DNA from: Steroidobacter sp. | Lineage (GTDB): Bacteria > Pseudomonadota > Gammaproteobacteria > Steroidobacterales > Steroidobacteraceae | Length of the DNA: 54,264 nt | Assembly: GCA_025929585.1 (NCBI GenBank) | Contig: JAICPY010000019.1 | Span: 1 to 54,264, forward strand | Direction of reading: 5' to 3' | Shown: positions 23,582 through 51,101 of the stretch, piece after piece | How positions within the stretch are numbered: position 1 is the first letter of the stretch | Layout: each line of letters begins with the position of its first letter | Made by a program: the position numbers and the translations under genes | The notes under the pieces: model-generated | Databases searched by the model: none | The model's input: the letters and a program-made list of their open reading frames with translations, nothing else | Told to the model about the DNA's origin: nothing

Positions 23582-23686
23582 GGTCTGCGGTCCGCGGTCT
23601 TGCGGCCAGAATGCTGACGCGAAAGAATCAGAATCACGTCGCCCGGGCAAAGCGAATATCTGGCTGCAGACCGCGGACCGCAGACC
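23582..23686. repeat. Mirrored heptamer-word element
   Basis: The left arm (23582-23611) is GGTCTGC, GGTCCGC, GGTCTTGC, then GGCCAGAA. The right arm (23659-23686), read on the minus strand, is GGTCTGC, GGTCCGC, GGTCTGC, then AGCCAGA. The outer 19 bp of the arms are perfectly complementary (23582-23600 with 23668-23686). The spacer is 47 bp. It lies between converging genes, 11 bp from the sigma gene's stop, and could fold as a long stem in either transcript. Confidence 0.92.
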
Positions 23687-23696
23687 TTTTCCGCCG

Positions 23697-24965
23697 CTAC
23701 GCCGATGCTCTCTGCGCCGACGCGCTGTCCTTCATCAACCGGTCGATGTGCATGCGAATGTGCGCCGCTTCCGCTGCGGTATGCGCAAGGGAGATGGCGC
23801 GATCGAAATCCACTTGCGCTTCGTCGATGCGACCGAGCTGGACGAGAAAGGCACCGCGTACGCCGAAGAAATGGAAATAGTTTGCTAACTGTGTCTCGAG
23901 CGGTGCGATCAGCTCGAGCGCCGCGGCGGGACCCCGCACTTTACTCAGCGCAACCGCGCGATTCAGAGTGACGACCGGTGAGGGTTGGAGTTTTTCGAGT
24001 ACGCCGTATAGCTGATCGATCTCTGCCCAATCCGTGTCCTCGGCCCGAGCCGCATGTGAATGAACGCCTGCAATCGCTGCTTGGATTTGGTACGGACCTG
24101 GCCGCCAATGTCGTAGAGCTTTGTCGATGAGGGCGTGACCTTCGGCGATCAGCTCGCGATTCCAAAGTCGTCGATCCTGATCGTCGAGCAGCACGATATT
24201 CCCGTTCCCATCCAGCCGGGCAGCGACTCTGGAGTGCTGCAACAATAGTAAGGCGGTGAGGCCCATGATCTCAGGCTCGCCGGGAAACAAGCGCAGTAGC
24301 AAGCGCGCGAGTCGAATGGCCTCTTCGCACAGAGGCACTCTTACGTGCACCTCACCGGCGCTCGCGGAATACCCTTCGTTGAACAACAGGTAGATCATCG
24401 CGGCAACCGTTTCCAAACGTTCGTGACGCTCTGGCGCGCCTGGAGTTTCGAAGGAAACTTCCCCGGCACCGATACGCCGCTTCGCGCGCGTGATGCGTTG
24501 CTCCATCGCGCTTTCGCTGACCAAGAATGCGCGTGCAATCTCGGCCACGCTCAAACCAGAGACGATGCGTAGCGCAAGCGCGATCTGCTGAGTTGCCGGC
24601 AGATCGGGATGACAACAGATGAACAACAGCCGCAGGATGTCGTCCCGATAGTGGGCGTTGTCCAGCCTATCGACCAAGGAAGTTTCCGCATCGCTCGTAT
24701 CGGAGAGCACGGATTCATCCGGCAAAGCCTCATGACGCTTCGAGCGGCGCGCCTCATCCAATGCGCAATTGCGGGCGACGAAGATCAACCAGGATGCCGG
24801 ATCGCGTGGCGGACCATTGGCGGGCCAGTTGCTCAATGCTCGCAGACAAGCTTCTTGAAAGGCCTCTTCGGCCACATCTAGATTGCGAAAATATCTGAGC
24901 AACGCGGCGAGCGCCTGCGGGCGCGCGGCGGTGATCGCGGCATCGATCCACGCAAGATCCGTCAC
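23697..24965 (-). CDS. RNA polymerase sigma factor, ECF42 type
   Basis: A 422-aa sigma factor. Residues 1-170 are sigma-70 regions 2 and 4 (AEEAFQEACLRALSNWP and the helix-turn-helix SVAEIARAFLVSESAMEQRI). The long C-terminal extension (about 185-415), rich in helical repeats with FNEGYSAS and LNRAVALSKVRG motifs, marks the ECF42 (DUF6596/TPR-like) group. Such factors have no anti-sigma gene; the extension is thought to control activity, and they are encoded with DGPF proteins, as here. The GTG start overlaps the stop of the DGPF gene by 4 bp. The inducing signal is unknown. Confidence 0.93.
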   Translation of the reverse strand: MTDLAWIDAAITAARPQALAALLRYFRNLDVAEEAFQEACLRALSNWPANGPPRDPASWLIFVARNCALDEARRSKRHEALPDESVLSDTSDAETSLVDRLDNAHYRDDILRLLFICCHPDLPATQQIALALRIVSGLSVAEIARAFLVSESAMEQRITRAKRRIGAGEVSFETPGAPERHERLETVAAMIYLLFNEGYSASAGEVHVRVPLCEEAIRLARLLLRLFPGEPEIMGLTALLLLQHSRVAARLDGNGNIVLLDDQDRRLWNRELIAEGHALIDKALRHWRPGPYQIQAAIAGVHSHAARAEDTDWAEIDQLYGVLEKLQPSPVVTLNRAVALSKVRGPAAALELIAPLETQLANYFHFFGVRGAFLVQLGRIDEAQVDFDRAISLAHTAAEAAHIRMHIDRLMKDSASAQRASA

Positions 24966-25387
24966 GGTGAGCCTCGCGTTGCCGATTGCGAGCTGACTGC
25001 GGCTGCATCGTCCTCGCTCAACGCTCGCGCCGGATTACTGGGATCCGAAAAATATTGCACCGGACGGATTTCCACCGCTCCGGGCTCATGCGCCAACTCG
25101 CCAGCAATGTCGATCACTTCCTCGAGCGTCGCGCACTCGACGATATAAAAGCCCAACAACTGCTCCTTCGTTTCCGCGAATGGCCCATCTATCACGATCG
25201 GTTGGCGCCCCGCTCGCACCGTCGTCGCGGTGGTCGTCGGCATCAAGCGCGCGACAGGTCCAATCTTGCCCACCACCGCGAGTTTCTGCACAACACCCGT
25301 ATGATGGGCCATCACGGCTCGATCCTTTTCCTCGGACCAGTTACCGACGACTTGCTCCGAGTTGTAACAAAGGATGGCGTAAAGCAT
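24962..25387 (-). CDS. DGPF-domain (YCII-related) protein
   Basis: A 141-aa partner of the ECF42 sigma factor. The signature IDGPFAETKEQLLGFYIVEC is intact (from about 66). It begins MLYAILCYNSE, as its paralogue at 14723-15094 begins MLYAVLIYDLE. A Ser/Ala-rich C-terminal tail of about 20 residues is extra. GAGG 6 bp before ATG 25387 makes the start secure. It is translationally coupled to the sigma gene and lies 14 bp downstream of the CPAC peptide gene. DGPF proteins are probable targets or effectors of ECF42; no enzyme activity is known. Confidence 0.93.
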   Translation of the reverse strand: MLYAILCYNSEQVVGNWSEEKDRAVMAHHTGVVQKLAVVGKIGPVARLMPTTTATTVRAGRQPIVIDGPFAETKEQLLGFYIVECATLEEVIDIAGELAHEPGAVEIRPVQYFSDPSNPARALSEDDAAAVSSQSATRGSP

Positions 25388-25401
25388 AACGACCTCGACG
25401 A

Positions 25402-25632
25402 TTAGCTCGCGCTAGTGCAGTGGGGCGGCTCGCCATTCGTGACGAAGCGCTTCTCTGACGTGCCCCGCCCCGGAATCGCTGCGTCCTGCGTCCACGCGGC
25501 AGTTTCGCCGCCAGCGCGCTGATTGGATAAACCGCGACGCCATAGCTTAACTGCGAACAACCCAACCAGCCCACCCGCCGAAGTCGCACCGGTTGCGATC
25601 AATGCCGCCGTCGTCATGCATGCCGGACACAT
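25402..25632 (-). CDS. Small membrane protein with CPAC motif
   Basis: A 76-aa protein that begins MCPACMTTAALIATGATSAG: a Cys-Pro-x-Cys pair at positions 2-5, then one transmembrane segment (about 8-30), then a polar tail. AGGAG 7 bp before ATG 25632 fixes the start; the frame is open further upstream without sense. Short MCPAC proteins of this kind occur near DGPF/sigma genes in other proteobacteria (recollection, not checked). The CPxC pair could bind metal or sense thiol redox state. It is the first gene of the ECF42 operon. Confidence 0.75.
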   Translation of the reverse strand: MCPACMTTAALIATGATSAGGLVGLFAVKLWRRGLSNQRAGGETAAWTQDAAIPGRGTSEKRFVTNGEPPHCTSAS

Positions 25633-25679
25633 GGAATATCTCCTCGCAGACCTTACCAACAGCGAATCCACAGTTATAA

Positions 25680-25706
25680 GACGCGTGAGGTTCGCGCGCA
25701 CCGACA
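25680..25706 (-). promoter_or_regulatory. Possible ECF-type promoter of the sigma operon
   Basis: On the minus strand TGTCGG (25701-25706), 17 bp, then CGTC (25680-25683), resembling the TGTCGA / CGTC pattern reported for ECF42 targets. It is placed about 48 bp before the CPAC gene start, so the factor could drive its own operon. Pattern match only. Confidence 0.4.
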
Positions 25707-25731
25707 GGGCCAAGGAAGAAATACAGTCGGA

Positions 25732-25864
25732 AGTCCTTAGTCTGTAGTCCGCAGCCAGAACCGGAGAGGGACTGCTATCGCACCTGCCGTTGGCGCCCGT
25801 TACGCCTCAGTGTAGATCTTCTCTGGCCTCTGGCCTCTGGCCTCTGGCCTGCGGACTGCGGACT
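25732..25864. repeat. Mirrored heptamer-word element with a changed word in one arm
   Basis: The left arm (25732-25760) is AGTCCTT, AGTCTGT, AGTCCGC, then AGCCAGAA. The right arm (25821-25864), read on the minus strand, is AGTCCGC twice, one base, then GGCCAGA four times. On the plus strand the inner part is four perfect CTCTGGC copies (25821-25848). The inner box itself has been amplified into a tandem array. The spacer is 60 bp. It lies between the hybrid kinase stop and the ECF42 operon. Confidence 0.9.
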
Positions 25865-25872
25865 CTTTCCCT

Positions 25873-27483
25873 CTATCCTTCAGCGTCCCCATCGCCCTGC
25901 GCGCCGAGCGTAAATGAGAACGTCGCGCCGTGGCCCGGGCCTTCGGATTCGCCCCAGACCTCACCCGCGTGGCGGTGAACGATGCGCTGAACGGTAGCGA
26001 GCCCGACACCGGTGCCGGAAAATTCTTGCTGCTGGTGCAACCGCTGGAACGGCTCGAACAAGCGTTTCGCATAACGTTGATCGAAGCCGGCACCGTTGTC
26101 GATCACTTGGAAGATGCGGCGCGCGTCATCGCCTGAGCTCACACGAAACTCGATCGAGCTTTCGGTCTGGTGCGAGGTGTACTTCCAAGCGTTCGAAAGC
26201 AAGTTCTCCATGAGCACAGTCATCAAGCCGCGATCGGCATCGATGATGGCAGCGCGTTCGATTCTAATGTTGGCTTTGCGGTTGGGTTGCGTCGTGCGCA
26301 GTCGATTCATGATCTCGCTCGCCACTTGGCTCAGGTCGAACCGTTCGATCTTGAGCTCGCGGCGCGTGATTCCCGATAGACGCAGTAGATCATCGATTAG
26401 ATCGTACATGCGCGAGACATGGGACCGCGCCGAGGCGATTCGTGCGCTCAGGCGCAAATCGAGATGGCCGAAATCCTCGTTGAGAATTCCCAATTCGCCG
26501 GACAGCGCCCGGAGCGGCGCACGTAAGTCATGAGAAACCGCATAGGTAAAGGCTTCGAGCTCTTTATTCGCGGCTTCTAGCTCTTTCGTGCGAGAGCGAA
26601 CGCGGCTTTCAAGCTCGCCGTAAACCTGCACATTCTCCATTGCGACAGCGGTAGTGTTGGCGAGCGCCTCCAACAGCATCAGCTCATCCGCGGTGCACAC
26701 ATGGCGCTGCGCCCAATACACACCGATTGCGCCCATCGGCGCGGCGGTGCGAATCGGCGCCATCGCGAGGCTTCGAACGAACGTCGATCGGTATGCACCC
26801 GCCTGAACGCGCTCGTCGTTGAAAACATCCTCGATCGCCACGGGGCGCGAATTCAGGATAGACCAACCGCTGATGCTGTTCGTCAAAGCAAAGCGCTGCC
26901 CTTTCCACAGGGATGAGATCGCATCTTCATCCGCGTACAAGCATTGCTCGCCGTCTCGCAGAATGAACGTCGCACCGTCGGCGTTCGTCAGCTCCCTCGC
27001 GGCACGCCGGACGATAGTCATCACGGCGGACAAATCGCGAGCCAAAGAGAGCTCTTGAACCACACCGACGAGCCGAGACATTGCTGCGTGCTGGCGGCTG
27101 AGTCTCTCGATGCTGCTCGAGAGCTGAGGTGCACGCGCTTTTTGGAGTGCCGGCACTAATCGCCAAAGCTGATGCTTGTCGATGTAATCGCTCGCGCCTT
27201 CACGCATCGCGGCGGCGATCTGCTCACCATCGCCGGCGCCAGAGCAAACGATCACCGGAAGCCTCGGGTGGAGGCCTTTGGATAAGCGAATCGCACTCAA
27301 CCCGTCAAAGCCCGGCACGCCGTTATCGACGAGCACCGCGACAACTTCGCGATCTTCGAGGCCTCGGCGAAATTCCTCGAGCGAAGACGCTCGAACGACT
27401 TCGGGCTCCATCCCGTGGCCCTCCAACAGCCGATGGATCAACTGAGAATCGGCTGGGTTGTCCTCTAAGTGCAGAATCCGCAT
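25873..27483 (-). CDS. Response-regulator-fused histidine kinase (REC-GAF-HisKA-HATPase)
   Basis: A 536-aa cytoplasmic signalling protein without transmembrane segments. It opens with a receiver domain (1-120) whose phosphoacceptor is Asp53 (VLVDNGVPG). A GAF sensor domain follows (about 150-285), then a helical linker, the HisKA dimerisation domain with His318 in AVSHDLRAP, and an HATPase domain (about 420-530) with the N box and GTGVGLATVQ. Having the receiver first and the kinase last suggests that upstream phosphorylation controls the kinase. This layout is common in phytochrome-related kinases, but there is no bilin-binding signature here. It diverges from the MetE-core gene. Ligand and target are unknown. 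Confidence 0.93.
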   Translation of the reverse strand: MRILHLEDNPADSQLIHRLLEGHGMEPEVVRASSLEEFRRGLEDREVVAVLVDNGVPGFDGLSAIRLSKGLHPRLPVIVCSGAGDGEQIAAAMREGASDYIDKHQLWRLVPALQKARAPQLSSSIERLSRQHAAMSRLVGVVQELSLARDLSAVMTIVRRAARELTNADGATFILRDGEQCLYADEDAISSLWKGQRFALTNSISGWSILNSRPVAIEDVFNDERVQAGAYRSTFVRSLAMAPIRTAAPMGAIGVYWAQRHVCTADELMLLEALANTTAVAMENVQVYGELESRVRSRTKELEAANKELEAFTYAVSHDLRAPLRALSGELGILNEDFGHLDLRLSARIASARSHVSRMYDLIDDLLRLSGITRRELKIERFDLSQVASEIMNRLRTTQPNRKANIRIERAAIIDADRGLMTVLMENLLSNAWKYTSHQTESSIEFRVSSGDDARRIFQVIDNGAGFDQRYAKRLFEPFQRLHQQQEFSGTGVGLATVQRIVHRHAGEVWGESEGPGHGATFSFTLGAQGDGDAEG

Positions 27484-27850
27484 AGACCAGCTTATGGCGA
27501 ACTAATGACTGGCAGTCTAGTCGTGGCTTTGCCCTCACTGCATCAGCAGATGGACTGATCGGCTAAACTAGGTGCCCGGAAATGCGCCTTTCCTGTTCGC
27601 AGCGAGCAATACTCGTTGGGCTGGCTAGCCCACGTTGGCGCGAGTTATTAGCACGGCTCGCAAGCCTACAAAAAAGCAGCAGCGGATTTCACAAAAGATA
27701 AGCTAAATGCCGCAAATTACGGCTTTGTTCCGCATCGCCGATGAATACGAAGAAGATTCCGCAATCGATTGCGTGAGGCGACCGCATCCGGGATGATGAG
27801 GGGCCGAGCATAAGAATTTCACGCCGGGATCCGGTAGCCGGCACCTAAGC
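27484..27850. other. Divergent intergenic region, 367 bp, no gene seen
   Basis: This gap separates the two divergent signalling genes. It must hold both promoters, but I find no clean -35/-10 pair, operator palindrome, RNA gene or word-type repeat. An A-rich stretch (27668-27700) is the only compositional feature. Confidence 0.5.
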
Positions 27851-31374: not shown

Positions 31375-31390
31375 GGGGGCAGGGAATGTA

Positions 31391-31530
31391 AGTCCGCAGT
31401 CCGTAGTCCACAGCGAGAACAACGGATAAGAATAGTCCGTAGTCCCCAGTCCCTGATCCCTCGTCCCTAGTCCCTGATCCTTAGTCCCTGTCCCCACCGC
31501 CTTCTAGCTACGGACTGCAGACGACGGACT
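31391..31530. repeat. Mirrored heptamer-word element, containing the glgX stop codon
   Basis: The left arm (31391-31419) is AGTCCGC, AGTCCGT, AGTCCAC, then AGCGAGAA. The right arm (31502-31530), minus strand, is AGTCCGT, CGTCTGC, AGTCCGT, then AGCTAGAA. The 82-bp spacer carries a further array of about eight AGTCCCT/GATCCCT words (31434-31496). The TAG of AGCTAGAA at 31504-31506 is the stop codon of glgX, so the last seven or so glgX codons are repeat sequence. Confidence 0.92.
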
Positions 31531-33720
31531 CACTCTCCTCTCCTCCCCGTCCGCCTTCGTCTTCTTCGCCCGATCCAATGCCGCATCCCCTTCCGCTTCG
31601 AGTCGGAACAACAGCAGCGATCTACCAGTGACGGCATAGGTGTCGCCAGGTTGGAAATTCGCCTTGTCTTTCTCGACGAGACCCGAGGGAAAATTCGTGT
31701 CGATGAGCAGCGACCAACGCGCCTCTTCGCCTTCACCTGGCAAGACGAAGTTCACGACATCGTGATATGCATTGAATACGACGAACATCGTAGCGTCCTG
31801 ACCGCGACGACGAATGCCGGAAATCTGCGCTCGCCCGTCGAGCAGCATGCCGAAGCACAACATCTTGTCATCGCTCCAATGCTCATCCTGCATTTCCGCG
31901 CCTGCGGCATTCACCCACGTGATCTCTTTCAGCTCGATGCGCTCGTTCATCTCACCCGAGAGGAAACGATCGCGTCGCAAAATCGGGTATCTCGAGCGTA
32001 AGTCGGTAAGGCGCTGGACGAATTGCACCAAGCCTTGATGGCGCTCGGCGAAACTCCAGTCGATCCAGCTGACCTCGTTATCTTGGCAGTACGCATTGTT
32101 GTTGCCGTGCTGAGTACGCGCGAACTCATCGCCCGCGAGCAGCATCGGCGTTCCCTGCGAGAGAAGCAGCGTGCCAAGGAAATTGCGCATCTGGCGCTGG
32201 CGCAGCTTTATGATCTCGGCATCCTCGCTCCCACCTTCCGCGCCGCAGTTCCATGAGCGGTTTTCCGAGGTGCCATCGTTGTTGTCCTCGCCATTCGCTT
32301 CGTTGTGGCGCTCGTTGTAGCTCACCAGATCGTTGAGTGTGAAACCGTCGTGAGCAGTGATGAAGTTCACGCTCGCATGTGGGCGGCGGCCATATTTGTC
32401 GAAAATATCCGCAGAACCGTGCAAGCGAGGCGCGACCTGAGCAGCGGCTGCTTCACCTCGCCAGAAATCACGCACGGTATCGCGATATCTATCGTTCCAC
32501 TCCGCCCACCCTGGCGGAAACTCTCCCACTTGATAGCCTCCTGGTCCGCAGTCCCACGGCTCGGCGATCAACTTCACACCTGCGAGCACCGGATCTTGCG
32601 AGCACGCTTTCAGAAAGCCGCTGCGCGCATCGAAGCCGGTCGCTTCGCGCGCGAGAATCGTACCCAGATCGAAACGAAATCCGTCGACGTGCATCTCCTG
32701 CACCCAATAGCGCAAGCTGTCCGTCACCATCTGAATGACGCGAGGATGGCTGAGGTTGAGCGTGTTGCCCGTGCCCGTATCGTTGATGTAATAGCGTTTC
32801 TGATCGGGAATCAGCCGATAATAAGATGCATTGTCGATGCCTTTGTAACAAAGCGTCGCGCCCCGCTCGTTGCCTTCGGCCGTATGGTTGTAGACAACAT
32901 CCAGAATCACCTCGAGTCCCGCCTCGTGAAAACGCGCGACCATTTCCTTGAACTCTTGCGGTCCGCGCCGCGGATCGGCGAAGTACCGCGGATCGGCCGC
33001 GAAGAATGCGATCGAGTTGTAACCCCAATAATTCCTCAAGCCCTTGTCGAGCAGATGGCTATCGTTCAGGAACATGTGGATGGGCAATAGCTCGACTGTC
33101 GTGACGCCGAGCGACTTGACGTACTGCACTACTTGCGCAACCGACAGGCCGGCGAACGTACCTCGGAGCGCTTCCGGCACCGCCGGGTGGAGCTTGGTGT
33201 AACCTCGAACGTGCGTCTCATAGATGATCGTCCGATCCCATGGCACGATCGGCTTGCCGCTTTGCTTCCAATCGAAATCGTTGTCGACGACGACGGATTT
33301 AGGAACGAACGCAGCGCTGTCGCGCTCATCGAAAGTGAGGTCATCACCTTCCGCTCCGATGGTGTAACCGAAGCAAGCCGGATCCCAACGCAATTCGCCG
33401 ATGAATTCGCGCGCATACGGATCGAGTAGCAACTTGTTCGGGTTGAAGCGATGCCCCTGGTCCGGTTCATACGGGCCGTGGACTCGATAGCCATACACAG
33501 TGCCTGGCCCGATGCCGGTCAGGCGACCGTGCCAGATCTCGTCCGTGTACTCAGGCAGCTCGATACGCTCGAGCTCCGTCTCGCCGTTGTCATCGAAGAG
33601 ACAAAGCTCGACTTTCGTCGCATTGGCCGAGAATAATGAGAAGTTGACGCCCTTGCCGTCCCAAGTTGCGCCTCTAGGATGCGGCAGCCCTTCCTCGAGG
33701 CGAATCGTTTTGTCGGCCAC
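31504..33720 (-). CDS. glgX: Glycogen debranching enzyme GlgX
   Basis: A 738-aa GH13 isoamylase-type enzyme that removes alpha-1,6 branches during glycogen breakdown in the cytoplasm. A CBM48-like N-terminal domain (about 8-105) precedes the barrel. Catalytic motifs are present: LDVVYNHTAEG, GFRFDLGT (nucleophile Asp), LIAEPWDCGPGGYQVG (acid Glu) and NFITAHDGFTLNDLVSY. The GTG start at 33720 (MADKTIRLEEG) is preferred; an ATG at 33837 would overlap the divergent DUF4126 start. The tail after about 715 (RAKKTKADGEERR then SSAVRS) is low-complexity, and its end is encoded by a repeat arm. No other glg genes are nearby. Confidence 0.94.
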   Translation of the reverse strand: MADKTIRLEEGLPHPRGATWDGKGVNFSLFSANATKVELCLFDDNGETELERIELPEYTDEIWHGRLTGIGPGTVYGYRVHGPYEPDQGHRFNPNKLLLDPYAREFIGELRWDPACFGYTIGAEGDDLTFDERDSAAFVPKSVVVDNDFDWKQSGKPIVPWDRTIIYETHVRGYTKLHPAVPEALRGTFAGLSVAQVVQYVKSLGVTTVELLPIHMFLNDSHLLDKGLRNYWGYNSIAFFAADPRYFADPRRGPQEFKEMVARFHEAGLEVILDVVYNHTAEGNERGATLCYKGIDNASYYRLIPDQKRYYINDTGTGNTLNLSHPRVIQMVTDSLRYWVQEMHVDGFRFDLGTILAREATGFDARSGFLKACSQDPVLAGVKLIAEPWDCGPGGYQVGEFPPGWAEWNDRYRDTVRDFWRGEAAAAQVAPRLHGSADIFDKYGRRPHASVNFITAHDGFTLNDLVSYNERHNEANGEDNNDGTSENRSWNCGAEGGSEDAEIIKLRQRQMRNFLGTLLLSQGTPMLLAGDEFARTQHGNNNAYCQDNEVSWIDWSFAERHQGLVQFVQRLTDLRSRYPILRRDRFLSGEMNERIELKEITWVNAAGAEMQDEHWSDDKMLCFGMLLDGRAQISGIRRRGQDATMFVVFNAYHDVVNFVLPGEGEEARWSLLIDTNFPSGLVEKDKANFQPGDTYAVTGRSLLLFRLEAEGDAALDRAKKTKADGEERRVSPSSAVRS

Positions 33721-33836
33721 TGTAATTGTTCCCGGGTGAGAGTCCTGCTGAACGTACCGAGTCCTGCATGCGTTCCAGCTTTGGCCGGATTCTGCAGACT
33801 CACGTTTCGCGGTGCCGCGAACATCGGAGCTATGCA

Positions 33837-34412: not shown

Positions 34413-34485
34413 GCGTCTCGTAATGATTAGCAACCCGATATACTGCGCAGGGCGGCTCTTGGCAGTCGCATAGCTGAGGTGTGCG

Positions 34486-35034: not shown

Positions 35035-35137
35035 CGGGGTGACGCGTGACGAAGTCAGAACTGAGGCGGACTTTTGGCTCAACATGTCCTCGTCTGTCCT
35101 CGTCCTTGCGGATTTGGCAATCCAGGTGCCATAAAAA

Positions 35138-35259
35138 TCTCGCGGCGGCGCAGCGGGTCAGATTAGGCAAGGATGAAGAGTAATCGCGGGGACGCGGCGT
35201 TCGCGGAGATAAGACGAACAAGATTCAGATCAACTCTGACCCGCTGCGCCGCCGCGAGA
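35138..35259. repeat. 25-bp perfect inverted repeat, 72-bp spacer
   Basis: 35138-35162 and 35235-35259 are exact reverse complements, rich in G and C (core GCGGCGGCGCAGCGGG). The spacer is AT-richer and mostly purine. The total of 122 bp with perfect termini resembles a MITE or an attenuator-like stem. No other copy is in the window. Confidence 0.9.
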
Positions 35260-35503
35260 AACTCCTGCGGAGATTAATCGTGCGCAGTGGCCGAGCTACG
35301 TGCTCTTGTTTGCCTTCCTTATCTTGCCTCTGCGAACTCAGCGTCTCGGCGAGATCATTCTTGTCATGCTCTACTGCGCAACAGAGGTCTTCAACGTGCG
35401 CGATCGCCGTCGAAGTGACTCGTGATTCGCGGGTCGTAAGATAAGCCGCACCCTGCCTCTTCTCCTGCTACCCGCAACCGCCTTCCCCTGTGATTAATGT
35501 GTT

Positions 35504-35537
35504 CGGGGACGTTCCTCGTCTTCGAGGAATGTCCCCG
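35504..35537. repeat. GGGGAC...GTCCCC hairpin
   Basis: A 15-bp stem with one G-T pair and the loop TCTT. It shares GGGGAC, TCCTCG and CGAGGA with the hairpin at 8917-8948. It lies within the nested element upstream of the PQQ dehydrogenase stop. Confidence 0.88.
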
Positions 35538-35597
35538 AGAGACGAAGCGTTCGGACGTCGTGACTTCGTCACCCATAGCATCCGCATTCATTGCGGA

Positions 35598-37658: not shown

Positions 37659-37666
37659 GGTCTGAT

Positions 37667-37856
37667 GTGACGAGGCGATGAGGTGGTGAGGTGGTGAACT
37701 AACAATGAAGCACTCTACCACTTGGGAGTATTCACTGGCCTTGCTGAGAACAGACATACCGCATCTTGCGCCGCTCCTGGGAACGATTCAGTTTGCCGAG
37801 TATTACGATCGATGCGATCGTCTTCTTCTTATCTCATCACGTTATTACCTCATTAC
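37667..37856. repeat. Mirrored octamer-word element in a divergent gap
   Basis: The left arm (37667-37698) is four degenerate octamers: GTGACGAG, GCGATGAG, GTGGTGAG, GTGGTGAA. The right arm (37826-37856), minus strand, is GTAATGAG, GTAATAAC, GTGATGAG, then ATAAGAA. The spacer is about 127 bp. It occupies most of the 317-bp gap between the divergent PQQ dehydrogenase and OYE genes, where both promoters should lie. The rest shows only the OYE ribosome site (AGCAGGAA before 37976). Confidence 0.8.
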
Positions 37857-39142: not shown

Positions 39143-39299
39143 GAAGAGGCCCCTCCCTAACCCTCCCCTCGCACGCGGGGGAGGGAACAAGAAACAGAGA
39201 TGCCTCGCTAACCTTGCCCGGCGCTAACCGTCGCAGCGAAACGGGAGGAAATTAGTTCCCTCCCCTGCTTGCGGGGAGGGTTAGGGCGGGGGCCTCTTC
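39143..39299. repeat. REP-like double hairpin, complete mirrored copy
   Basis: The left half begins GAAGAGGCCCC, continues with CCTAACCCTCCCC and folds on itself through CCCTCCCC / GGGGGAGGG. The right half (39256-39299) is its imperfect inverse, ending GGTTAGGGCGGGGGCC then TCTTC. The spacer is about 70 bp and begins with AACAAGAAACAGAG, close to the inner boxes of the word elements. It lies between converging genes and may act as a bidirectional terminator. Confidence 0.88.
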
Positions 39300-39333
39300 G
39301 ATTTCGTTGTGCGCGCGGCACGAGACACCGAGC

Positions 39334-41265: not shown

Positions 41266-41315
41266 CAGAGTTCCTTTCTTCGAATGTTTTGGGAGGGAGA
41301 TTGCATGGAGAGGCG

Positions 41316-42020: not shown

Positions 42021-42056
42021 TGTTTTTCATCGATGTAAACAGTGGAGCGGAACTCT

Positions 42057-43286: not shown

Positions 43287-43289
43287 CTG

Positions 43290-44417
43290 ATGCGCACGCG
43301 GCCGACAGCACTCGCACTAGCTGGGCTGGCAGCTTTGCTCGTAGTCGCGCCTTCCTTTTTCGTAGGTGCGCAAACGCACGTCGGCTCCGAGTTTCCGACA
43401 CGTCTGTCGAAGTGGGACTTGTTCAACGTTCATGGCAATCGTCTGGAGCCGCGCGAAGGCGTGATGCCCTACGATTTGAATACTGCGCTGTTCAGCGATT
43501 ATGCGTTGAAGCTTCGAACGTTGAGCGTCCCGCTTGGGACCAAAGTCCAGCTCGTCAATGGCGAATTGATCTTTCCCGTCGGTACCGTCGTCTCAAAGAC
43601 CTTCTACTACCCACGTGCGCAAGACAACGCGAGGGACGATCGAACCGCCGTCGATAAGGTGACCGGCTCGAGCACAACCGACGCGCTGGACTTAAGTCGC
43701 GTGCAATTGCTCGAGACTCGCTTGCTGGTCAACACCGAATCCGGCTGGCAAGCGCTGCCCTACGTTTGGAATGACGACCAAACGGACGCGGTGCTTGCGC
43801 TCGCGGGCGAATCGTTTGCACTCACGCTCGTGGATGAACGATCTCAAACCGATTTTGACTACATGGTTCCAGATGCGAACCAATGCTCCGCGTGCCATGC
43901 GGTGAACGGTCGCGAGCTCGCGCCGATCGGGCTGAAGGTTCCACACGTCAACGAGCAACATCTCTATCCAAGTGGCCGCAAGAATCAGCTACGCCACTGG
44001 CAAGACGCCGGATTACTAGCAGCGGCATCACTCAAGGGTTTGCCACGAACGCCGCGATGGGACGACCCTCGCGAGAATCTCAACGCGAGGGCGCGCGCGT
44101 ACCTCGATGTGAATTGCGGCCACTGCCACAGCAACCACGGCGCAGCTGACAATTCCGGATTGCTGCTCGATGCAACTTCGCACGAACCCATCCATCTCGG
44201 CATCTGCAAACCTCCCGTCGCCACTGGCCGCGGTTCCGGCAACGATTCCTTCGCCATCGTCCCCGGCTCCCCGCGACAATCGATCTTGCTATATCGAATG
44301 CAATCCACCGAACCCGACATCGCCATGCCCGAGCTCGGCCGCTCCCTGGTCCACAAGGAGGGCACGGCATTGATTAGCGAATGGATTAGATCCCTGGAAG
44401 GAAACTGCGAGAATTGA
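43290..44417 (+). CDS. SO2930-family diheme c-type cytochrome
   Basis: A 375-aa exported cytochrome. A signal peptide (ALAGLAALLVVAPSFFVGAQ) precedes a domain opening FPTRLSKWDLF, which continues with YDLNTALFSDYALKLRTL, characteristic of the TIGR03806/HNE_0200 family. Two haem sites are clear: C199-S-A-C-H203 and C276-G-H-C-H280. It starts 3 bp after the stop of the beta-helix gene, so the pair is certainly an operon. The family is known only through its constant pairing; no reaction has been assigned. It converges on an SDR gene with a mirrored repeat between them. Confidence 0.93.
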   Translation: MRTRPTALALAGLAALLVVAPSFFVGAQTHVGSEFPTRLSKWDLFNVHGNRLEPREGVMPYDLNTALFSDYALKLRTLSVPLGTKVQLVNGELIFPVGTVVSKTFYYPRAQDNARDDRTAVDKVTGSSTTDALDLSRVQLLETRLLVNTESGWQALPYVWNDDQTDAVLALAGESFALTLVDERSQTDFDYMVPDANQCSACHAVNGRELAPIGLKVPHVNEQHLYPSGRKNQLRHWQDAGLLAAASLKGLPRTPRWDDPRENLNARARAYLDVNCGHCHSNHGAADNSGLLLDATSHEPIHLGICKPPVATGRGSGNDSFAIVPGSPRQSILLYRMQSTEPDIAMPELGRSLVHKEGTALISEWIRSLEGNCEN

Positions 44418-44428
44418 TCGCTGTGTTA

Positions 44429-44516
44429 AGTCCATAGTCTGCAGTCTGTGGTCCGTAGCCAGAAACAGCTTTTCCTCGTGCCAGCGTCTCTCTCTGTGGA
44501 CTACAGACTGAGGACT
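44429..44516. repeat. Mirrored heptamer-word element, short spacer
   Basis: The left arm (44429-44464) is AGTCCAT, AGTCTGC, AGTCTGT, GGTCCGT, then AGCCAGAA. The right arm (44489-44516), minus strand, is AGTCCTC, AGTCTGT, AGTCCAC, then AGAGAGA. Only 24 bp separate the arms, the shortest spacer of the set. It fills the gap between two converging genes. Confidence 0.9.
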
Positions 44517-44528
44517 CGCCAGCTCTCG

Positions 44529-45278
44529 CTACCCTCTTCCCACGAACGGCATCTTCGTTGCGACGACTGTCATGAATAGAACGTTCGCTTCCAACGGAAG
44601 ATTCGCCATATACAACACCGCATCGGCGACGTGCTGAACATCGAAGGTCGGTTCGACTTTCATCGATAAATCCGCTTGCAATGTACCCGTGGTCATTGCG
44701 GCAGCCATCTCGGTTGCCGTGTTGCCGATGTCGATTTGACCGCAGGCAATGTCGAACTGCCTGCCCTCCAACGATGTCGCCTTCGTAAGTCCAGTCACTG
44801 CATGCTTGGACGCGGTGTAGGCAATGAGATGCGGGCGCGGCGTCGTCGCGGAAATCGAGCCGTTGTTGATAATGCGGCCGCCTCGCGGCGTTTGCGACTT
44901 CATCAACTTGAACGCGGCCTGAGTGCACAGGAATGCGCCCGTCAGGTTCGTATCGATCACGGACCGCCACTGCTCGGGTCGAAGCTCATCGAGCGGCGTT
45001 GCCGGGACAGAAATACCTGCATTATTGAAGAGCACATCTAAACGGCCGAATCGGCCCGCAATTTCATCGAAGAGCGTGCTCACCGATGCAGGATCCGCAA
45101 CATCCGCGCGCAGCGCGGTGGCTGCGTTCGAATCTTCGATTTCTTTGGCCACGTCCTCCAAAGGACCTCGCCGCCGACCGGTCAATACGACGTGGTAGCC
45201 GTTCTGAGCCAGCTTCTTAGCGACCGCGCGACCGATTCCGGAACCCGCACCGGTCACTAACGCCACTTTAGCCGTCAT
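44529..45278 (-). CDS. Short-chain dehydrogenase/reductase
   Basis: A 249-aa classical SDR. The cofactor loop TGAGSGIG (about 10-17), the NNAG segment (about 90-93), a Ser-containing NNGSIS strand and the catalytic YTASK (Y-x-x-x-K) are intact. Residues TGRR after the second strand suggest NADP(H) preference. The protein ends with a membrane-proximal-looking [19 protein letters not shown] segment common in YdfG-like members. The substrate is unknown. It is 21 bp downstream of the DUF6279 gene on the same strand. Confidence 0.94.
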
Positions 45279-45299
45279 TCTTTCCCCTTATGGTGCGCG

Positions 45300-46160: not shown

Positions 46161-46173
46161 GCCCGCTTCGATG

Positions 46174-46866
46174 TTACTGCCAAGGCGCTCGCAGCCGGAA
46201 GCGCTTCTGCTTGAACAAAGGTATCAAGACCATGCCGGCGACGAAGCCACCGATGTGGGCACGAAACGCGACGCCACCTTGGCCGGCTTGAGCCATCGCG
46301 TTGCTGAACAATTGCATGCCGAACCACAGAATCAACACGATGCCGGCCGGAATGCGAACCGTATGCAAAATGAATCCCAAAGGAATCGCCACCAACACGC
46401 GCGCATGCGGGTAGAGCAATAGGTACGCGCCCAGCACACCTGAGATCGCACCGCTCGCACCGACCATTGGGATCGTCGATGCCGGCTCGGGCAACGCCTG
46501 GGCGAATACCGCAGCCAGTCCGCACAACAGATAGAAGACGACGAACCGCACATGTCCCATGCTGTCTTCGACGTTGTTACCGAAGATCCACAGATAAAGC
46601 ATGTTGCCGATGAGATGCATCCAGCCGCCGTGCATGAACATCGAGGTCAGAGTCGTCATCGAGGGAGGCACGAGAGCTAATTCCGGCGGCAACTCTCCCA
46701 ATCCCAGCAACACCGCAGGAATCACACCGAGAGCGTAGATAATTTGCTGCCCGCGCTCCGGGCCGAGAGTGAACTGCCAGAGAAACACCAGTACGCACGC
46801 GACCACGAATGTAATCGTTACGAACGGCTGGATCGTGGTGGGATTGTCATCGCTTAAGGGGATCAT
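46174..46866 (-). CDS. Rhomboid-family intramembrane serine protease
   Basis: A 230-aa integral membrane protease with about six transmembrane helices. The catalytic dyad is intact: Ser138 in GASGAISG and His204 in AHIGGF. The structural HxxxN motif is at His84-Asn88 (HLIGN), and the E/D-rich loop (NNVEDSMGH) is as in the larger bacterial rhomboids. It cleaves type I or similar membrane segments near the periplasmic side; the substrate is unknown. The adjacent DUF6279 lipoprotein is an unlikely substrate because it has no transmembrane segment. It is the first gene of a small minus-strand cluster. Confidence 0.95.
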   Translation of the reverse strand: MIPLSDDNPTTIQPFVTITFVVACVLVFLWQFTLGPERGQQIIYALGVIPAVLLGLGELPPELALVPPSMTTLTSMFMHGGWMHLIGNMLYLWIFGNNVEDSMGHVRFVVFYLLCGLAAVFAQALPEPASTIPMVGASGAISGVLGAYLLLYPHARVLVAIPLGFILHTVRIPAGIVLILWFGMQLFSNAMAQAGQGGVAFRAHIGGFVAGMVLIPLFKQKRFRLRAPWQ

Positions 46867-46910
46867 TGGCTGTAGCGTGCCGATGAGGAACTAGGACGTC
46901 AATCGACAGC

Positions 46911-46996
46911 GAGTCGCGGGTAGTACGAAAGCAGCAGCTACCGAGCAACTCTTCCTAATCCGACGATCCGCCAATCACGAATCACGAGCCACCAGA
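46911..46996. repeat. Possible degenerate word element
   Basis: On the minus strand the right part reads GTGATTC, GTGATTG, GCGGATC (46968-46993). The left part (46911-46924) reads GAGTCGCGGGTAGT. The words recall those at 35420-35433, but the arms match poorly, so this is tentative. Confidence 0.3.
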
Positions 46997-47016
46997 CATG
47001 GGGGGGTGCAGCCCGC

Positions 47017-48048
47017 TCACACCGGCGGCGGATTACGCTTCGCGAAGCCTCTCTGATGCCAGTATGGGTACGCCAGTGTTACTGCACTTGCCTCATCGAG
47101 CTTTGCAATCTGTTCACTGCTGAGCTTCCAACCGACGGCGCCGATGTTCTGCCGGAGTTGCTCTTCAGTACGAGCGCCGACGATGACGCTTGCGACCGTC
47201 GGGCGTTGCGAGAGCCAGTTGATCGCGATTTGTGGCACTGTTTTGCCTGTCTGCTGCGCAACCTCATCGAGCGCATCCATGACCTTGTAAAGATGCTCGT
47301 CGGCTATGGGCGGACCGCCGTCGACCGTGGCCTGGTTACGCAATCGCCCGCTCTCAGGTAGCGGTTGTCCACGGCGGATCTTGCCGGTTAGACGTCCCCA
47401 TCCGAGTGGACTCCATACGATCGCGCTCACCTTTTGATCGAGGCCGAGCGGCATCAGCTCCCATTCATAGTCCCGGCCTAGCAAAGAATAGTAAGCCTGG
47501 TTCGCGACATGCCTCACCCAACCATTCCTATCGGAGATCGCGAGCGACTTCATCAAGTGCCAGCCCGAGAAATTCGAACATCCGATGTAGCGGATCTTGC
47601 CTGCGCGAACCAAATCATCGAGCGTGCGCAGAGTTTCTTCCACCGGCGTGGTCGCATCGAAGCCGTGCAATTGAAACAGATCGATGTAATCGGTACCGAG
47701 CCGTTTCAAAGCGGCATCGCAAGCTCGCAACAGCGCGTAGCGCGAAGAGCCGACATCATTCGGGCCTGGACCGACAGTGAAGGTGGCCTTGGTCGAGATG
47801 ATGACCTGATCTCGCCGACCGCGGATCGCTTGACCCAGAATTTCCTCGGCAGCGCCACTGGAATAGACGTCCGCCGAGTCGAACATGTTGAGGCCCGCCT
47901 CTAGACAAATGTCTACGAGTCGACTGGCCTGTTTGACCTCCACTTCGCCGAAGCCGCGAAAGAAGTCACCGCGCCCTCCGAAACCCGCGGTGCCCAAGCT
48001 CAACACGGGCACCTTGAAGCCCGAGCCGCCGAGTTGCCTGTATTCCAT
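47017..48048 (-). CDS. Aldo/keto reductase
   Basis: A 343-aa NADPH-dependent (beta/alpha)8 reductase. MEYRQLGGSGFKVPVLSLGT is the usual opening. The catalytic tetrad is readable: Asp and Tyr in FDSADVYSSG, Lys in ISTKATF, and His in LFQLHGFD. The SNFSGW and SVIVGART segments that bind cofactor are also present. It resembles the YajO/Tas branch rather than the classical aldose reductases. The physiological carbonyl substrate is unknown. It is 150 bp downstream of the rhomboid gene on the same strand and diverges from the Cache-CheW gene. Confidence 0.95.
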   Translation of the reverse strand: MEYRQLGGSGFKVPVLSLGTAGFGGRGDFFRGFGEVEVKQASRLVDICLEAGLNMFDSADVYSSGAAEEILGQAIRGRRDQVIISTKATFTVGPGPNDVGSSRYALLRACDAALKRLGTDYIDLFQLHGFDATTPVEETLRTLDDLVRAGKIRYIGCSNFSGWHLMKSLAISDRNGWVRHVANQAYYSLLGRDYEWELMPLGLDQKVSAIVWSPLGWGRLTGKIRRGQPLPESGRLRNQATVDGGPPIADEHLYKVMDALDEVAQQTGKTVPQIAINWLSQRPTVASVIVGARTEEQLRQNIGAVGWKLSSEQIAKLDEASAVTLAYPYWHQRGFAKRNPPPV

Positions 48049-48066
48049 TTCGCTCCCAAAGACTAA

Positions 48067-48219
48067 GTGATGAGGTGATGAGGTGATTACGACAGAGCAG
48101 TTCGCCCTGCTCCATCCCTATAGATACTCACCTCGATGCGCCTTCTATAGACGGATGATGCGCGAATGAGTTGCAGGACCGTTTACAGGAAGGGGCAATC
48201 AAGGTGATGAAATGATAAG
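48067..48219. repeat. Octamer-word arms, not clearly mirrored
   Basis: The first arm (48067-48090) is GTGATGAG twice, GTGATTAC, then GACAGAG (48091-48097). A second pair of words in the same orientation, GTGATGAA ATGATAAG, is at 48204-48219. No inverse arm was found. This lies in the 384-bp divergent gap between the aldo/keto reductase and Cache-CheW genes. The rest of the gap (48220-48432) shows no gene or promoter I can defend. Confidence 0.65.
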
Positions 48220-48432
48220 GAAGCGCACGGGTCGGATCTTTACATCGTGTCGTGTCTTTTTCTGCCTTCTCGCCCTCGATCAGCGCACCAAGTTGGCGCA
48301 GCTGAGCCCCGGCTTCGGAGCGCGCAGTCGACCGCTCGCAGCAATGTGATCGGGCTCTCGTAATCGGCGCAACCAAGGCTCAAGCGGACGCCGCTTCAGC
48401 CGTTAGCTGAGAAACGCAGCCGAGCCACACCC

Positions 48433-50955
48433 ATGCCGCACACCCACATCGCGAGGCACATGTCCTCGGTCGAAGCCTATCGGCAAAGATTAGCCTCGCT
48501 CCAGGGCGCTTGGGACACACTGTCACTCCTGTCGCATCTTGCGACCGATAGCTCCGATATGACCGGCACCCGGCAGGCGTTCGAAGCGCTCTCTGCGGAT
48601 CTCATTAAGAGTCTCGCGAGCGAGACTCACAAAAAGTCCTTGCTAGCGCTCAAAGCCCGGGCTCAGATCGCCATCGACATTCTGGTGCGCAATCTATTCG
48701 AGCGCACGGCCGACATTGGCTTCCTCAGCGCCGATCAAGATATCTGCGAATACGTTCGCGAAGCATCGGTTCGTAAAGCCAACAATGAAAACGAAGCCGA
48801 TGCAACTCGGAAGGAAGCGCTACATGCTCGTCTGCGGGCATACGTAGCCAAGTATTCGGTTTACAACGACATTGCATTGCTAGCTGCGGATGGCACGCTA
48901 CTGCTGAAGCTCGATCGCGAAAATTCGATCGAGCGCTCCTCGGACCCTCTCATCGCCCAGACCTTGAACGCTCGTGCGTCGTATGTCGAAACCTATCGAC
49001 ATGTCGATATCTTCGCGAACCAAAAACGCAGCCTGATCTACTCCCACCGAGTCGGCGATGGTTCGCAAACATCCGCGGTGTTGTGCTTGTGCTTCAACTT
49101 GGAAGATGAAGTCACCCGAATCTTCTCCAAGCTCTCGACCACTGAGGACTGGTCGCTGTACGCCTTCGTCGATGAAAGCGGCCATGTCATCGCAAGCAGC
49201 GATCCATGGCAGCTACCCCAAGGCGCGAGAGTTCCGCTCGCAATGAGTGAGGGCGGCAACATCGTGCGCTTTGCGGGCCGCGAGTATCTGGCGATCACGC
49301 GTTCCACGCCAGGATATCAGGGCTATGCGGGTCCGGGCTGGCTCGGCCACGTCATGATTCCGCTCGAACATGCGTTCGATACGTCCCAGGATCAATCAGC
49401 AGCCGGGCTAGACGAGCGAGTCTTGCAAGATCTCTGCGAGAGCGAAGCGTTATTCTCCCCGGAACTGCGACGGATTCCGCACCAGGCAAGGAGGATTCAA
49501 GAAGACTTGAACCGCTCGGTATGGAACGGCAACGTCCGGCTTTCTGTGCGCAACGACAATGGCAACACATTCGCCAAGGCGCTGCTCAGAGAAATCGGCA
49601 ATGCAGGCCGACGCACGCAAGAGACCTTCGAGCATTCCATCGCGGATCTGCAGAAAACAGTCACCTCGGCGATCTCCCATAGCGCAAGTGTTCTGGCGAC
49701 GCTCGCCGTCGATATCCTGGATCGAAACCTGTACGAACGTGCGAATGATTGCCGATGGTGGGCATTGAACGCGGCTTTGTTTCAACACCTAAGCGGTGCG
49801 GCTCGCGATGCCGGACGAGTCTCGAGTGTCTTGCGACATATCAACGCGCTATATACGGTGTACCACGGAATCGTATTGTTCGATGCGCAAGGCGTGATTC
49901 ATGCCGCTTCCAATCCTGGACATGAACATCTCATCGGCAAACGATGTGAGGAAGAATGGGTTGGCGCGACGCTGGCGCTACGGCATCCCCAGGATTTTGC
50001 CGCTTCGGGCTTCTGCCCGAGCGAGTTGTATGACGGGCAACCGACGCTGATCTTCGGTGCCGCCGCCCTCGGCATTTCGGCTGGTCGCGCGATCGGAGGC
50101 ATCGGCATCGTGTTCGACTCGAAGCCGCAGCTTGCCGCCATGCTCGCCGACTCTTTACCGCGCGCCAGTTCAGGTGCGATCGCGGAGGGCTGCATCGCAC
50201 TATTCGTGGATGCTTCGCATCGCGTAATCGCCGCAAGCTCGGGATTCGAGATTGGAGAATCTGCGGATCTACCTGCAGAGTTATTCGATGCCCACGATCA
50301 GGGCACAACGCGCATCGTCGAATACCAGGGCAGCTATTACGCCGCAGCCACGTGCATCACGTCCGGCTACCGCGAGTACGCCGGCATGGAAGCCACCGCG
50401 ATCGTCATGATCGCCCTCGGCCCTCGCCCACAGCGTCAACCCGTTAATACAAAGGCTTTAGCAGGGCATGGCAAACGAGCGAACGCGGGCGAGCCGTTGG
50501 TGGAAATCGCGACGTTTTTCTGCGGCGGTCAATGGCTCGGCGTACTGCGAGATCATGTCATCGAAGCGCTCGACGCAAGTTCGCTACGGCGGCTGCCGAG
50601 CAAACCAGCGTGGCACGCAGGCGTTTTGATGTATCAAGACAAGCCCGTTCCCGTGATCGATCTTGCGCAGCTCATTGGTACGGCGCCATCGAGTAGGCGC
50701 GAAATCGTGATCGTGCAGCCTGCGAAGGATCGAATGCGTATCGGTTTGCTGATCGAGGAGCTCGCTTCGATTCCCGAGGTTCCCGCCACGAGCCTACTGC
50801 CCCTTTCCGATTGCGCGATGCGCAGCGCCAGTCGCATCGTCGATCGCGCGGTCCGCCCGGAAAGCGCCGAAGATCCCGTATTGCTGATCATCAACATCGA
50901 TCAAGTTCTAATCGCGACGCGTGGCACGTGCGATACCACTTCCGTTGTCGGTTGA
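48433..50955 (+). CDS. Soluble double-Cache, CheW-domain protein
   Basis: An 840-aa protein with an internal duplication. Half 1 (about 73-315) contains IDILVRNLFERTADIGFLSA (81-100) and SLYAFVDESGHVIASS; half 2 (about 417-662) contains VDILDRNLYERANDCRWWAL (426-445) and CIALFVDASHRVIAAS. Each half looks like a Cache/PAS-like sensor. Residues 688-828 are a CheW domain (FFCGGQWLGVLRDHVIEALD, VPVIDLAQLIG). I see no signal peptide or transmembrane segment, so the sensor halves appear cytoplasmic. Translation may start at 48433 or at 48460 (GAGG just before). It is probably a chemotaxis-type adaptor that couples a ligand to a CheA kinase encoded elsewhere. The stop codon lies in a repeat arm. Confidence 0.87.
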   Translation: MPHTHIARHMSSVEAYRQRLASLQGAWDTLSLLSHLATDSSDMTGTRQAFEALSADLIKSLASETHKKSLLALKARAQIAIDILVRNLFERTADIGFLSADQDICEYVREASVRKANNENEADATRKEALHARLRAYVAKYSVYNDIALLAADGTLLLKLDRENSIERSSDPLIAQTLNARASYVETYRHVDIFANQKRSLIYSHRVGDGSQTSAVLCLCFNLEDEVTRIFSKLSTTEDWSLYAFVDESGHVIASSDPWQLPQGARVPLAMSEGGNIVRFAGREYLAITRSTPGYQGYAGPGWLGHVMIPLEHAFDTSQDQSAAGLDERVLQDLCESEALFSPELRRIPHQARRIQEDLNRSVWNGNVRLSVRNDNGNTFAKALLREIGNAGRRTQETFEHSIADLQKTVTSAISHSASVLATLAVDILDRNLYERANDCRWWALNAALFQHLSGAARDAGRVSSVLRHINALYTVYHGIVLFDAQGVIHAASNPGHEHLIGKRCEEEWVGATLALRHPQDFAASGFCPSELYDGQPTLIFGAAALGISAGRAIGGIGIVFDSKPQLAAMLADSLPRASSGAIAEGCIALFVDASHRVIAASSGFEIGESADLPAELFDAHDQGTTRIVEYQGSYYAAATCITSGYREYAGMEATAIVMIALGPRPQRQPVNTKALAGHGKRANAGEPLVEIATFFCGGQWLGVLRDHVIEALDASSLRRLPSKPAWHAGVLMYQDKPVPVIDLAQLIGTAPSSRREIVIVQPAKDRMRIGLLIEELASIPEVPATSLLPLSDCAMRSASRIVDRAVRPESAEDPVLLIINIDQVLIATRGTCDTTSVVG

Positions 50956-51101
50956 CGGTTGACGGTTGACGGTTGACGGCAAGAACGATGGACGGGTTGG
51001 GGTTGGAGCGGCAACCGGGCTTACGCGGAGATTGAGATAGCCTCTAGGATTCACGCGCGCAAGAAGCTCCTCATCCTACCGCCAACTGTCAACCGTCAAC
51101 C
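50950..51101. repeat. Mirrored heptamer-word element with a different word (GGTTGAC)
   Basis: The left arm (50950-50985) is GGTTGAC four times without error, then GGCAAGAA. The right arm (51074-51101), minus strand, is GGTTGAC twice, AGTTGGC, then GGTAGGA. The spacer is 88 bp. The arrangement is that of the AGTCCGC elements but with another word. The left arm overlaps the stop codon (TGA 50953-50955) of the Cache-CheW gene. Confidence 0.92.

Follow-up and report, generated by a model that had tools for sequence, protein, structure and literature searches.

Mirrored word arrays in five intergenic gaps

The window analyzed here is a stretch of 54,264 nucleotides from a Steroidobacter sp. (contig JAICPY010000019.1), whose genome, labeled G000 in the following, is a 5.13-Mb draft. 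In five of its intergenic gaps, a first-pass annotation had described mirrored elements, each with a left arm of three or four copies of a 7-bp word followed by RGCVAGAA and, beyond a spacer, the inverse of that arm. All five gaps indeed hold an inverted pair of short word arrays (positions refer to the whole window). One degenerate word, RGTCYRY, is common to elements 1 to 4, while element 5 is built from GGTTGAC, in agreement with the earlier statement that the last element uses a different word. The cap RGCVAGAA stands at the inward end of all five left arms. Its inverse, which had been claimed for every right arm, is recognizable in the right arms of elements 1 to 3 and not in those of elements 4 and 5.

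Element 1 consists of a left arm with three RGTCYRY-type words and the cap GGCCAGAA (23582-23611, plus strand) and a right arm with inverse words and TCTGGC (23659-23686, minus strand). In element 2, the left arm carries words and AGCCAGAA (25733-25760, plus), and in the right arm the cap itself is multiplied (TCTGGCC, four times) before two inverse words follow (25819-25864, minus). The left arm of element 3, made of words and AGCGAGAA, lies at 31390-31419 (plus). Its right arm (31502-31530, minus), in which the inverse cap reads TTCTAGC, overlaps the 3' end of an isoamylase-like gene (31504-33720, minus), and the spacer contains a second array (31431-31495, minus) of a GGGACTA-type word, belonging to a class other than RGTCYRY. 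Element 4 starts 11 bp after the stop codon of the gene at 43290-44417 with four words and AGCCAGAA (44429-44464, plus); its right arm (44491-44516, minus) has no clear cap and lies 12 bp from the 3' end of the gene at 44529-45278 (minus). Element 5 comprises four GGTTGAC words and GGCAAGAA on the left (50949-50985, plus) and a right arm without inverse cap (51079-51101, minus). The TGA stop codon of the gene that ends at 50955 falls inside the left array and, judged by eye, in phase with the word.

Folding of the DNA was performed on elements 1 to 4. Strong folding of the arms was seen for elements 1 (z score -7.1), 2 and 4; for element 3, 15 of 200 shuffles folded at least as well.

Abundance of arrays in the genome

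Searched for across the genome with up to two mismatches, the half-site (RGTCYRY)2RGYVAGAA gave 314 matches (165 + 149), in comparison to 3 (1 + 2) for the reversed pattern. Arrays were then counted in a sample of ten contigs (798,232 bp, 673 called genes, 504 gaps of at least 25 bp), all of which were known from half-site matches and were not picked for single elements. Genes were called by our own script, with uncertain start positions, and gaps were scanned for short-period arrays together with 20-40 bp of flank. The array detector is more tolerant of transitions than of transversions. Degenerate arms fall below the array thresholds, and 'absent' therefore means not detected; a 9-mer palindrome visible in the gap C47:61388 of the relative G002, for example, stays below threshold.

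At a score of 11, the gaps contain 236, 51 and 26 arrays of period 7, 8 and 9, respectively, as against 0, 0 and 0 in Markov shuffles, and the remaining periods between 4 and 12 yield 0-4 arrays. The same score in 694 kb of coding sequence returns 9, 3 and 16 arrays at periods 7, 8 and 9, and 24 each at periods 6 and 12. At the working threshold of 10.5 we found 332 arrays, spread over 211 of the 504 gaps; a single detected array is present in 100 of these occupied gaps and exactly two in 103. Scaled by the amount of sequence, the genome would hold about 2,100 arrays in total. The five elements are real, and their plan is genome-wide and not a product of chance.

Word classes, cap, orientation and position

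Word classes were set up after inspection of the words. The heptamer classes comprise RGTCYRY (57 arrays), RGTGACG (54), GTTGACG (45), GGSGATA (33), GCGGWTA (32), GGGANT (14) and GCGGCGC (12); in addition, there are 25 arrays of the 8-mer GTGAYGNN, 21 of the 9-mer GTGATGNNN and 39 unclassed arrays. In five of six 7-mer classes, arrays most often have 3 or 4 units (four in 23 of 31 GGNGATA arrays), the exception being the small GGGANT class. Seven of the nine classes, across 7-, 8- and 9-mers, have in their consensus an inward cap like YMAGAA, preceded by a G. It is not part of the consensus of the GCGGWTA and GGGANT classes, though single GCGGWTA arms carry it.

When arrays were oriented by plain G-minus-C, 83 of the 103 two-array gaps face inward and 5 outward. 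As RGTCYRY has about equal G and C, such arrays were oriented by their GTC strand instead; with the G-richer or the GTC strand running inward, 99 of the 103 gaps face inward and none outward. Mirrored pairs span 80-170 bp in 87 of 99 cases.

Arrays occupy 60 of 93 convergent, 127 of 306 tandem and 24 of 105 divergent gaps. The outer edge of mirrored pairs lies at a median of 5 bp from the stop codon (n = 133) and within 15 bp of it in 103 of the 133 cases, compared with 60% at random placement in the same free space. The distance to start codons (median 26 bp, n = 79) is not smaller than random. Among 164 arms lying within 40 bp of a stop codon, 53 overlap it, and by eye the overlapped stops are often TGA or TAG in phase with the word.

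Mixed-class arms were seen at L034:11741-11961 and L037:11284-11417, where a GTTGACG arm lies inside or opposite RGTGACG arms and one side has about nine near-perfect units. At L039:15358-15423, a tetranucleotide array, (GGAT/ATGG)n, immediately precedes a mirrored heptamer element.

The two arms share a class, not a sequence

In 84 of 99 mirrored pairs the two arms agree in class, where permutation yields 14 on average and 27 at most; with classes derived from clustering, 60 of 83 arm pairs are concordant versus 15. Of 45 pairs of arrays that flank one gene from neighboring gaps, only 3 are of one family (expected 5.7), which argues that the gap is the unit and that there is no regional clustering. 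The correspondence of words between the arms of one element, as noted in the first-pass annotation, thus holds for the word class. For the letters within a class it does not, since two arms taken from one element show no more resemblance than arms from separate elements (pooled over 8 classes, 1736 versus 1749 ± 27, P 0.68). An earlier test restricted to 6 strict RGTCYRY pairs, superseded by the 8-class test, had given an identity of 0.58 versus 0.59 permuted. The GCGGWTA class alone showed within-element similarity (P 0.001), but this class merges the sub-words GCGGAT and GCGGTT, which would produce such a signal.

Left and right arrays do not correlate in length (rho 0.02, n = 84). Mismatches were typed in tandem gaps, whose transcribed strand is known; 103 are of G.U type and 115 of A.C type (P 0.46), showing no wobble bias. 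Together with the missing similarity within classes, these results lend no support to ongoing conversion between arms or to selection on an RNA stem. Ongoing arm-to-arm copying, one of the causes put forward in the annotation, is contradicted, whereas copying only at the birth of an element, long ago, is still compatible with the data; selection for a palindrome regardless of sequence, the other, likewise fails on these comparisons. With the word class kept fixed, the refuting condition on arm similarity that the annotation had set itself goes against both. Slippage, in contrast, is confirmed by single arms with near-perfect arrays of 8-13 units and by the independent lengths of the two arms.

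To follow how the word varies, we took 29 arms in which the cap and two perfect RGTCYRY words serve as anchor. In the third word of these arms, 5 of 87 core (GTC) positions are changed, and the 116 degenerate R/Y positions contain 36 minority-transition letters and 5 transversions. The RGTCYRY word holds its purine/pyrimidine pattern while transitions run almost free.

Spacers

Spacers are mostly 12-46 bp long in the RGTCYRY, GTTGACG, 8- and 9-mer classes and mostly 59-118 bp in the RGTGACG class, with an overall range from 12 bp to more than 100 bp. Among the matches listed, 76 spacers gave 428 non-self matches at E<1 to the 798-kb sample, compared with 147 for control stretches. Twelve of the 76 had a non-self match at E<0.001, the sources of which, among the matches listed, are word arrays inside the spacer, the inner sequence of the GCGGCGC class, another dispersed repeat, a terminator hairpin and one 19-bp match. 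On these grounds, an origin of the spacers as copies from elsewhere was rejected within this sample. GCGGCGC copies with a common inner sequence demonstrate that a shared body is detectable by this kind of search. A miniature inverted-repeat transposable element with a conserved body was rejected for the word classes, whose spacers are unrelated; it partly fits the GCGGCGC class, where some inner sequence is shared.

Relatives and orthologous gaps

The same plan occurs with other words in five relatives of the genus (G002, G004, G007, G008 and G013). These words include GGGCTAC (G004, G002), AGTCTAC (G007), GGGGCTT (G013), GTGAGTG (G004), 9-mers such as CACGGAGAT and GGGGAACAC (G002), and GTTGACG and CAATGAG arrays (G008). 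No clear 7-mer arrays were found in short samples (5.7-40 kb each) of G001, G003, G005, G006, G009, G010, G011 and G012, the matches listed for G006 being due to runs of N. In one orthologous gap, a Steroidobacter locus (L090) and a locus of Povalibacter uvarum DSM 26723 (L097) both have mirrored 9-mer arrays: L090:3032-3187 holds two nested mirrored 9-mer palindromes, with CACGGAGTT as outer and CGCAAAAAG as inner word, and the arms of L097 read CACGGGGAT.

We compared 68 orthologous pairs of adjacent genes, of which 11 have a detected array solely in G000, 8 solely in the relative, 6 on both sides and 43 on neither. Part of the stretches taken from the relatives had been selected close to known arrays, and in a small number of rows the same G000 gap is set against two relatives. 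Across the 19 discordant gaps, the array-bearing one is longer in 15 cases, equal in 1 and shorter in 3. Several orthologous gaps are short and without a detected element in a relative: the array-bearing gap measures 168 bp versus 3 bp in G002 at C62:23846, 225 versus 15 bp at C37:16964 and 168 versus 21 bp at C47:62680. Alignments of orthologous gaps were judged by eye, and at C62:35027 and C62:42915 the intergenic sequence adjoining the element could be matched to element-free G002. One gap, C62:15574, has GTTGACG arms in G000 and GGCTACG arms in G002. These comparisons favor a course in which elements would have entered as units, spacer included, and words would have turned over at shared positions.

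Two loci from other families of the class Gammaproteobacteria, L239 (G307) and L240 (G182), carry (CAGTTGG)n arrays that by eye start at a TAG, apparently the stop codon, and L239 has a short inverse copy downstream of the array. A single word throughout the class was rejected, as (RGTTGAC)3 was found in none of 273 other sampled genomes, a sample that excluded G007 and G008, where the word occurs. The reversed-pattern control of this search matches G000 (13 + 12), G182 (6 + 70), G307 (14 + 1) and G272 (1 + 0), since reversal turns the word into another heptamer of this type.

Candidate machinery

Matches to Y1_Tnp are missing from the array-bearing genomes G004, G007 (75% complete) and G013 and number one in G000, five in G002 and two in G008. 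The reverse transcriptase family PF00078 has no match in the array-bearing G008 and G013, and both families, the Y1 transposase and PF00078, are found as well in genomes where no arrays are seen. For want of co-occurrence, neither RAYT nor reverse transcriptase was retained as the mover. Ku is present in 13 of 14 genomes of the genus, in all six with arrays and in seven of the eight others, and was rejected as a discriminating partner for this reason. The tests of RAYT, PF00078 and Ku thus leave no candidate mover. The sole PF00078 match of G000 (G000:C77:47574-48242) contains one in-frame TGA.

Further arrays and repeats in the window

Beyond the five elements of the first-pass annotation, the window contains mirrored 8-mer (GTGATGNN) arrays of the same plan at 7923-8028 (arms 7923-7953 and 8006-8028), a lone 8-mer array (ATCACCTN) at 9001-9021 (minus) and another (GTGATGAG), followed by TACGACAGA, at 48061-48087 (plus). 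With 59-91 and 37664-37697, these make up the 8-bp word arrays of the window, mostly of the GTGATGAG type and following the heptamer plan. A mirrored element of the GCGGCGC class with a similar cap (GTCAGA) lies at 35138-35259 (arms 35138-35162 and 35235-35259); related copies are found on several other contigs, some of them with common inner sequence. Another dispersed repeat, of the CCCTAACCCTCCCC...GGGGAGGGAA and AGGGAGAGGCCGCAAG types, occurs at 4907-5088, 39144-39298 and about 20-60, and also on other contigs of G000, with one copy inside the long spacer C117:46024-46420.

The stretch 23697-25387 encodes a gene pair of a sigma factor with DUF6596 and YCII. In one scan, the nearest relatives of the sigma factor came from Lysobacteraceae, Steroidobacter and many alphaproteobacteria, which suggests horizontal transfer.

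Discussion

The closest described relative of the elements is the Xanthomonas/Nostoc repeat, and what is new here is that many words share one plan. For two Xanthomonas genomes, Rehm et al. (2015, PMC4692102) report GGGAATC arrays with a mode of four units and 70 and 75 convergent inverted pairs, mostly near the ends of open reading frames (ORFs), and read them as G-quadruplexes; the earlier remark that no described family with such a grammar was known to the annotator is superseded by that account. The GGGAATC and GGGGA(C/T)T repeats of Xanthomonas and Nostoc resemble the present elements in being intergenic heptamer arrays of about four units near ORF ends. They further have many convergent inverted pairs with the G-rich strand pointing away from the near gene, few copies between divergent genes, and positions often common to related species. 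Unlike those repeats, for which one GGG-bearing word type was studied per genome, the elements here combine many word classes in one genome, 7-, 8- and 9-mers, a common cap, mostly no GGG runs and a turnover of words between species. The same paper relays the suggestion that the heptamer length reflects the DNA segment held by polymerase, and the 8- and 9-mer arrays of the same plan argue against a strictly 7-bp cause. The Xanthomonas/Nostoc quadruplex repeat appears as a single word within a broader grammar, whose words can be exchanged while plan and cap are kept.

Other known systems share single traits. The TAACTGA repeats of Beggiatoaceae (PMC4679880) are intergenic tandem heptamers, and shorter repeat-free gaps in relatives are noted there for two Bacteroidetes; as described in the relevant parts of that report, however, they are direct repeats that, in the main genome, mostly lie shortly before start codons, and they are not mirrored apart from one indirect case. 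REPINs and the REP-RAYT system (PMC3116915) have paired inverted arms, a less conserved spacer, several classes per genome and an extragenic location. They differ, to the extent that the cited sections describe them, by having no word arrays and by fixed distances, common compensatory changes and a link to RAYT; for the elements here, neither fixed spacing nor compensatory changes nor co-occurrence with RAYT was found. GTAG/CGTC palindromic repeats (PMC3733652) likewise form families of short inverted elements, also as dimers, but are presented in the sections concerned as single short stem-loops with a tetranucleotide tag and without mention of tandem words. Among the openly licensed papers listed by our literature searches, none dealt with a multi-word, capped and mirrored family. 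The STRR heptamers of cyanobacteria are tandem heptamers of several words and are not known to have been described as capped mirrored pairs.

Our preferred reading, to which we give slightly less than an even chance, is that the elements are small palindromic insertions at gene ends, which form several coexisting families and later drift by slippage. Each element consists of two inverted arms around a spacer that is different each time. An arm holds about 3-4 units of a degenerate word of 7, 8 or 9 bp, specific to the family, and usually has a common cap like YMAGAA at its inward end. The elements lie in intergenic gaps, in many cases right beside a stop codon, which some of them include. We infer insertion as the direction of change, and each element may arrive as one unit made by some trans-acting machinery, which would recognize or synthesize cap and word. 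Once in place, the two arms would drift separately, through slippage of units and, for RGTCYRY, chiefly through transitions at the fixed degenerate positions, with words turning over between species while plan and cap persist. Simple transposition of one sequence had already been doubted in the first-pass annotation, rightly so given the unrelated spacers, the several word classes and the other words in relatives.

A number of observations weigh against such insertions. A copied element should carry its spacer, yet none of 60 spacers compared mutually gave a match below E 0.01, no better than shuffles, and no recent copy pair was seen in the 798-kb sample. The preference for stop codons is moderate, with a median of 5 bp versus 10 bp at random placement. 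To these points come the three discordant orthologous gaps in which the array-bearing side is the shorter one and the gap C62:31914, where arms of two different words surround sequence shared with G002, which misfits a single unit insertion. Moreover, the compared relatives are distant (most flanking proteins are about 55-92% identical), so that loss is possible in any single case, and neither RAYT (PF01797) nor reverse transcriptase (PF00078) tracks the arrays in the genus.

It is rather unlikely, in our estimation, that the arms serve family-specific DNA-binding proteins as clustered binding sites arranged in pairs, kept by selection in each gap with putative roles in supercoiling, nucleoid bridging or as a roadblock at gene ends, where tandem duplication would ease the gain of sites. 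The fixed core and fixed degenerate positions of RGTCYRY fit this idea, as does the occupancy of convergent, tandem and divergent gaps, but wholesale word differences between species, about nine classes in one genome, variable spacing and the many gaps with a lone detected array do not. Scars of double-strand-break repair, with both 3' ends extended by the same word and then joined with filler DNA, are a less probable origin still. They would explain the unrelated spacers, the common class of both arms, the missing covariation, the inward polarity on both sides, the extra length relative to element-free gaps, the nested elements (L090, window element 3 and further arrays inside spacers) and the excess at convergent gene ends. 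Ku accompanies the arrays in every array-bearing genome of the genus, but is equally present in nearly all of the rest; G008 and G013 carry arrays without a PF00078 match, no template RNA or end-adding enzyme is known, and no source for the 76 spacers was found in the 798-kb sample. We attach only a low probability to a more specific form, in which the arrays would be products of a DNA-end-extending activity that adds the word telomere-like to both 3' ends of a gene-end break before joining. If true, the genome would keep a dated, word-coded record of breaks, in which the word changes with the template.

A comparably low probability falls to RNA hairpins at 3' ends, either terminators or mRNA stabilizers, selected for pairing. 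Strong folding of the arms in elements 1, 2 and 4 and the many arms directly 3' of stop codons are what this would predict; the missing covariation within classes, G.U mismatches not in excess over A.C and the fold of element 3, matched or beaten by 15 of 200 shuffles, are not. In a simple scan of our own, terminator-like hairpins were as rare in gaps with arrays (8 of 187) as in gaps without (10 of 212), on which basis intrinsic terminators (a GC hairpin, then a T run) were rejected, and by eye terminator-like hairpins with T runs lie inside two spacers (L038:12811-12967 and C24:22234-22331). Slippage combined with arm-to-arm copying or gene conversion, as first proposed, is very improbable: long near-perfect arrays on one arm and the within-element similarity of the GCGGWTA class speak for it, the latter with the reservation of its two sub-words, whereas the pooled comparison of arms, the uncorrelated lengths and the sharing of classes by dozens of gaps contradict it. 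Least likely of all are G-quadruplexes, the reading put forward for the repeats of Xanthomonas and Nostoc. The plan is the same, and 14 of 332 arrays belong to the GGGAATC/GGGACTA-like class (GGGNATC or GGGGAYT), but four GGG runs are present in only 20 of the 332. Four GG runs, which might allow a two-tetrad quadruplex, occur in 150.

With these counts, the GGG-type quadruplex is refuted as a general explanation here, the quadruplex reading of Rehm et al. does not extend to the elements as a whole, and GGG-quadruplex formation no longer serves as a general reason for repeats of this kind. One genome alone supplies hundreds of elements as a test set for the question that they raise, namely what makes or spreads class-matched inverted word arrays around unrelated spacers, often beside stop codons.

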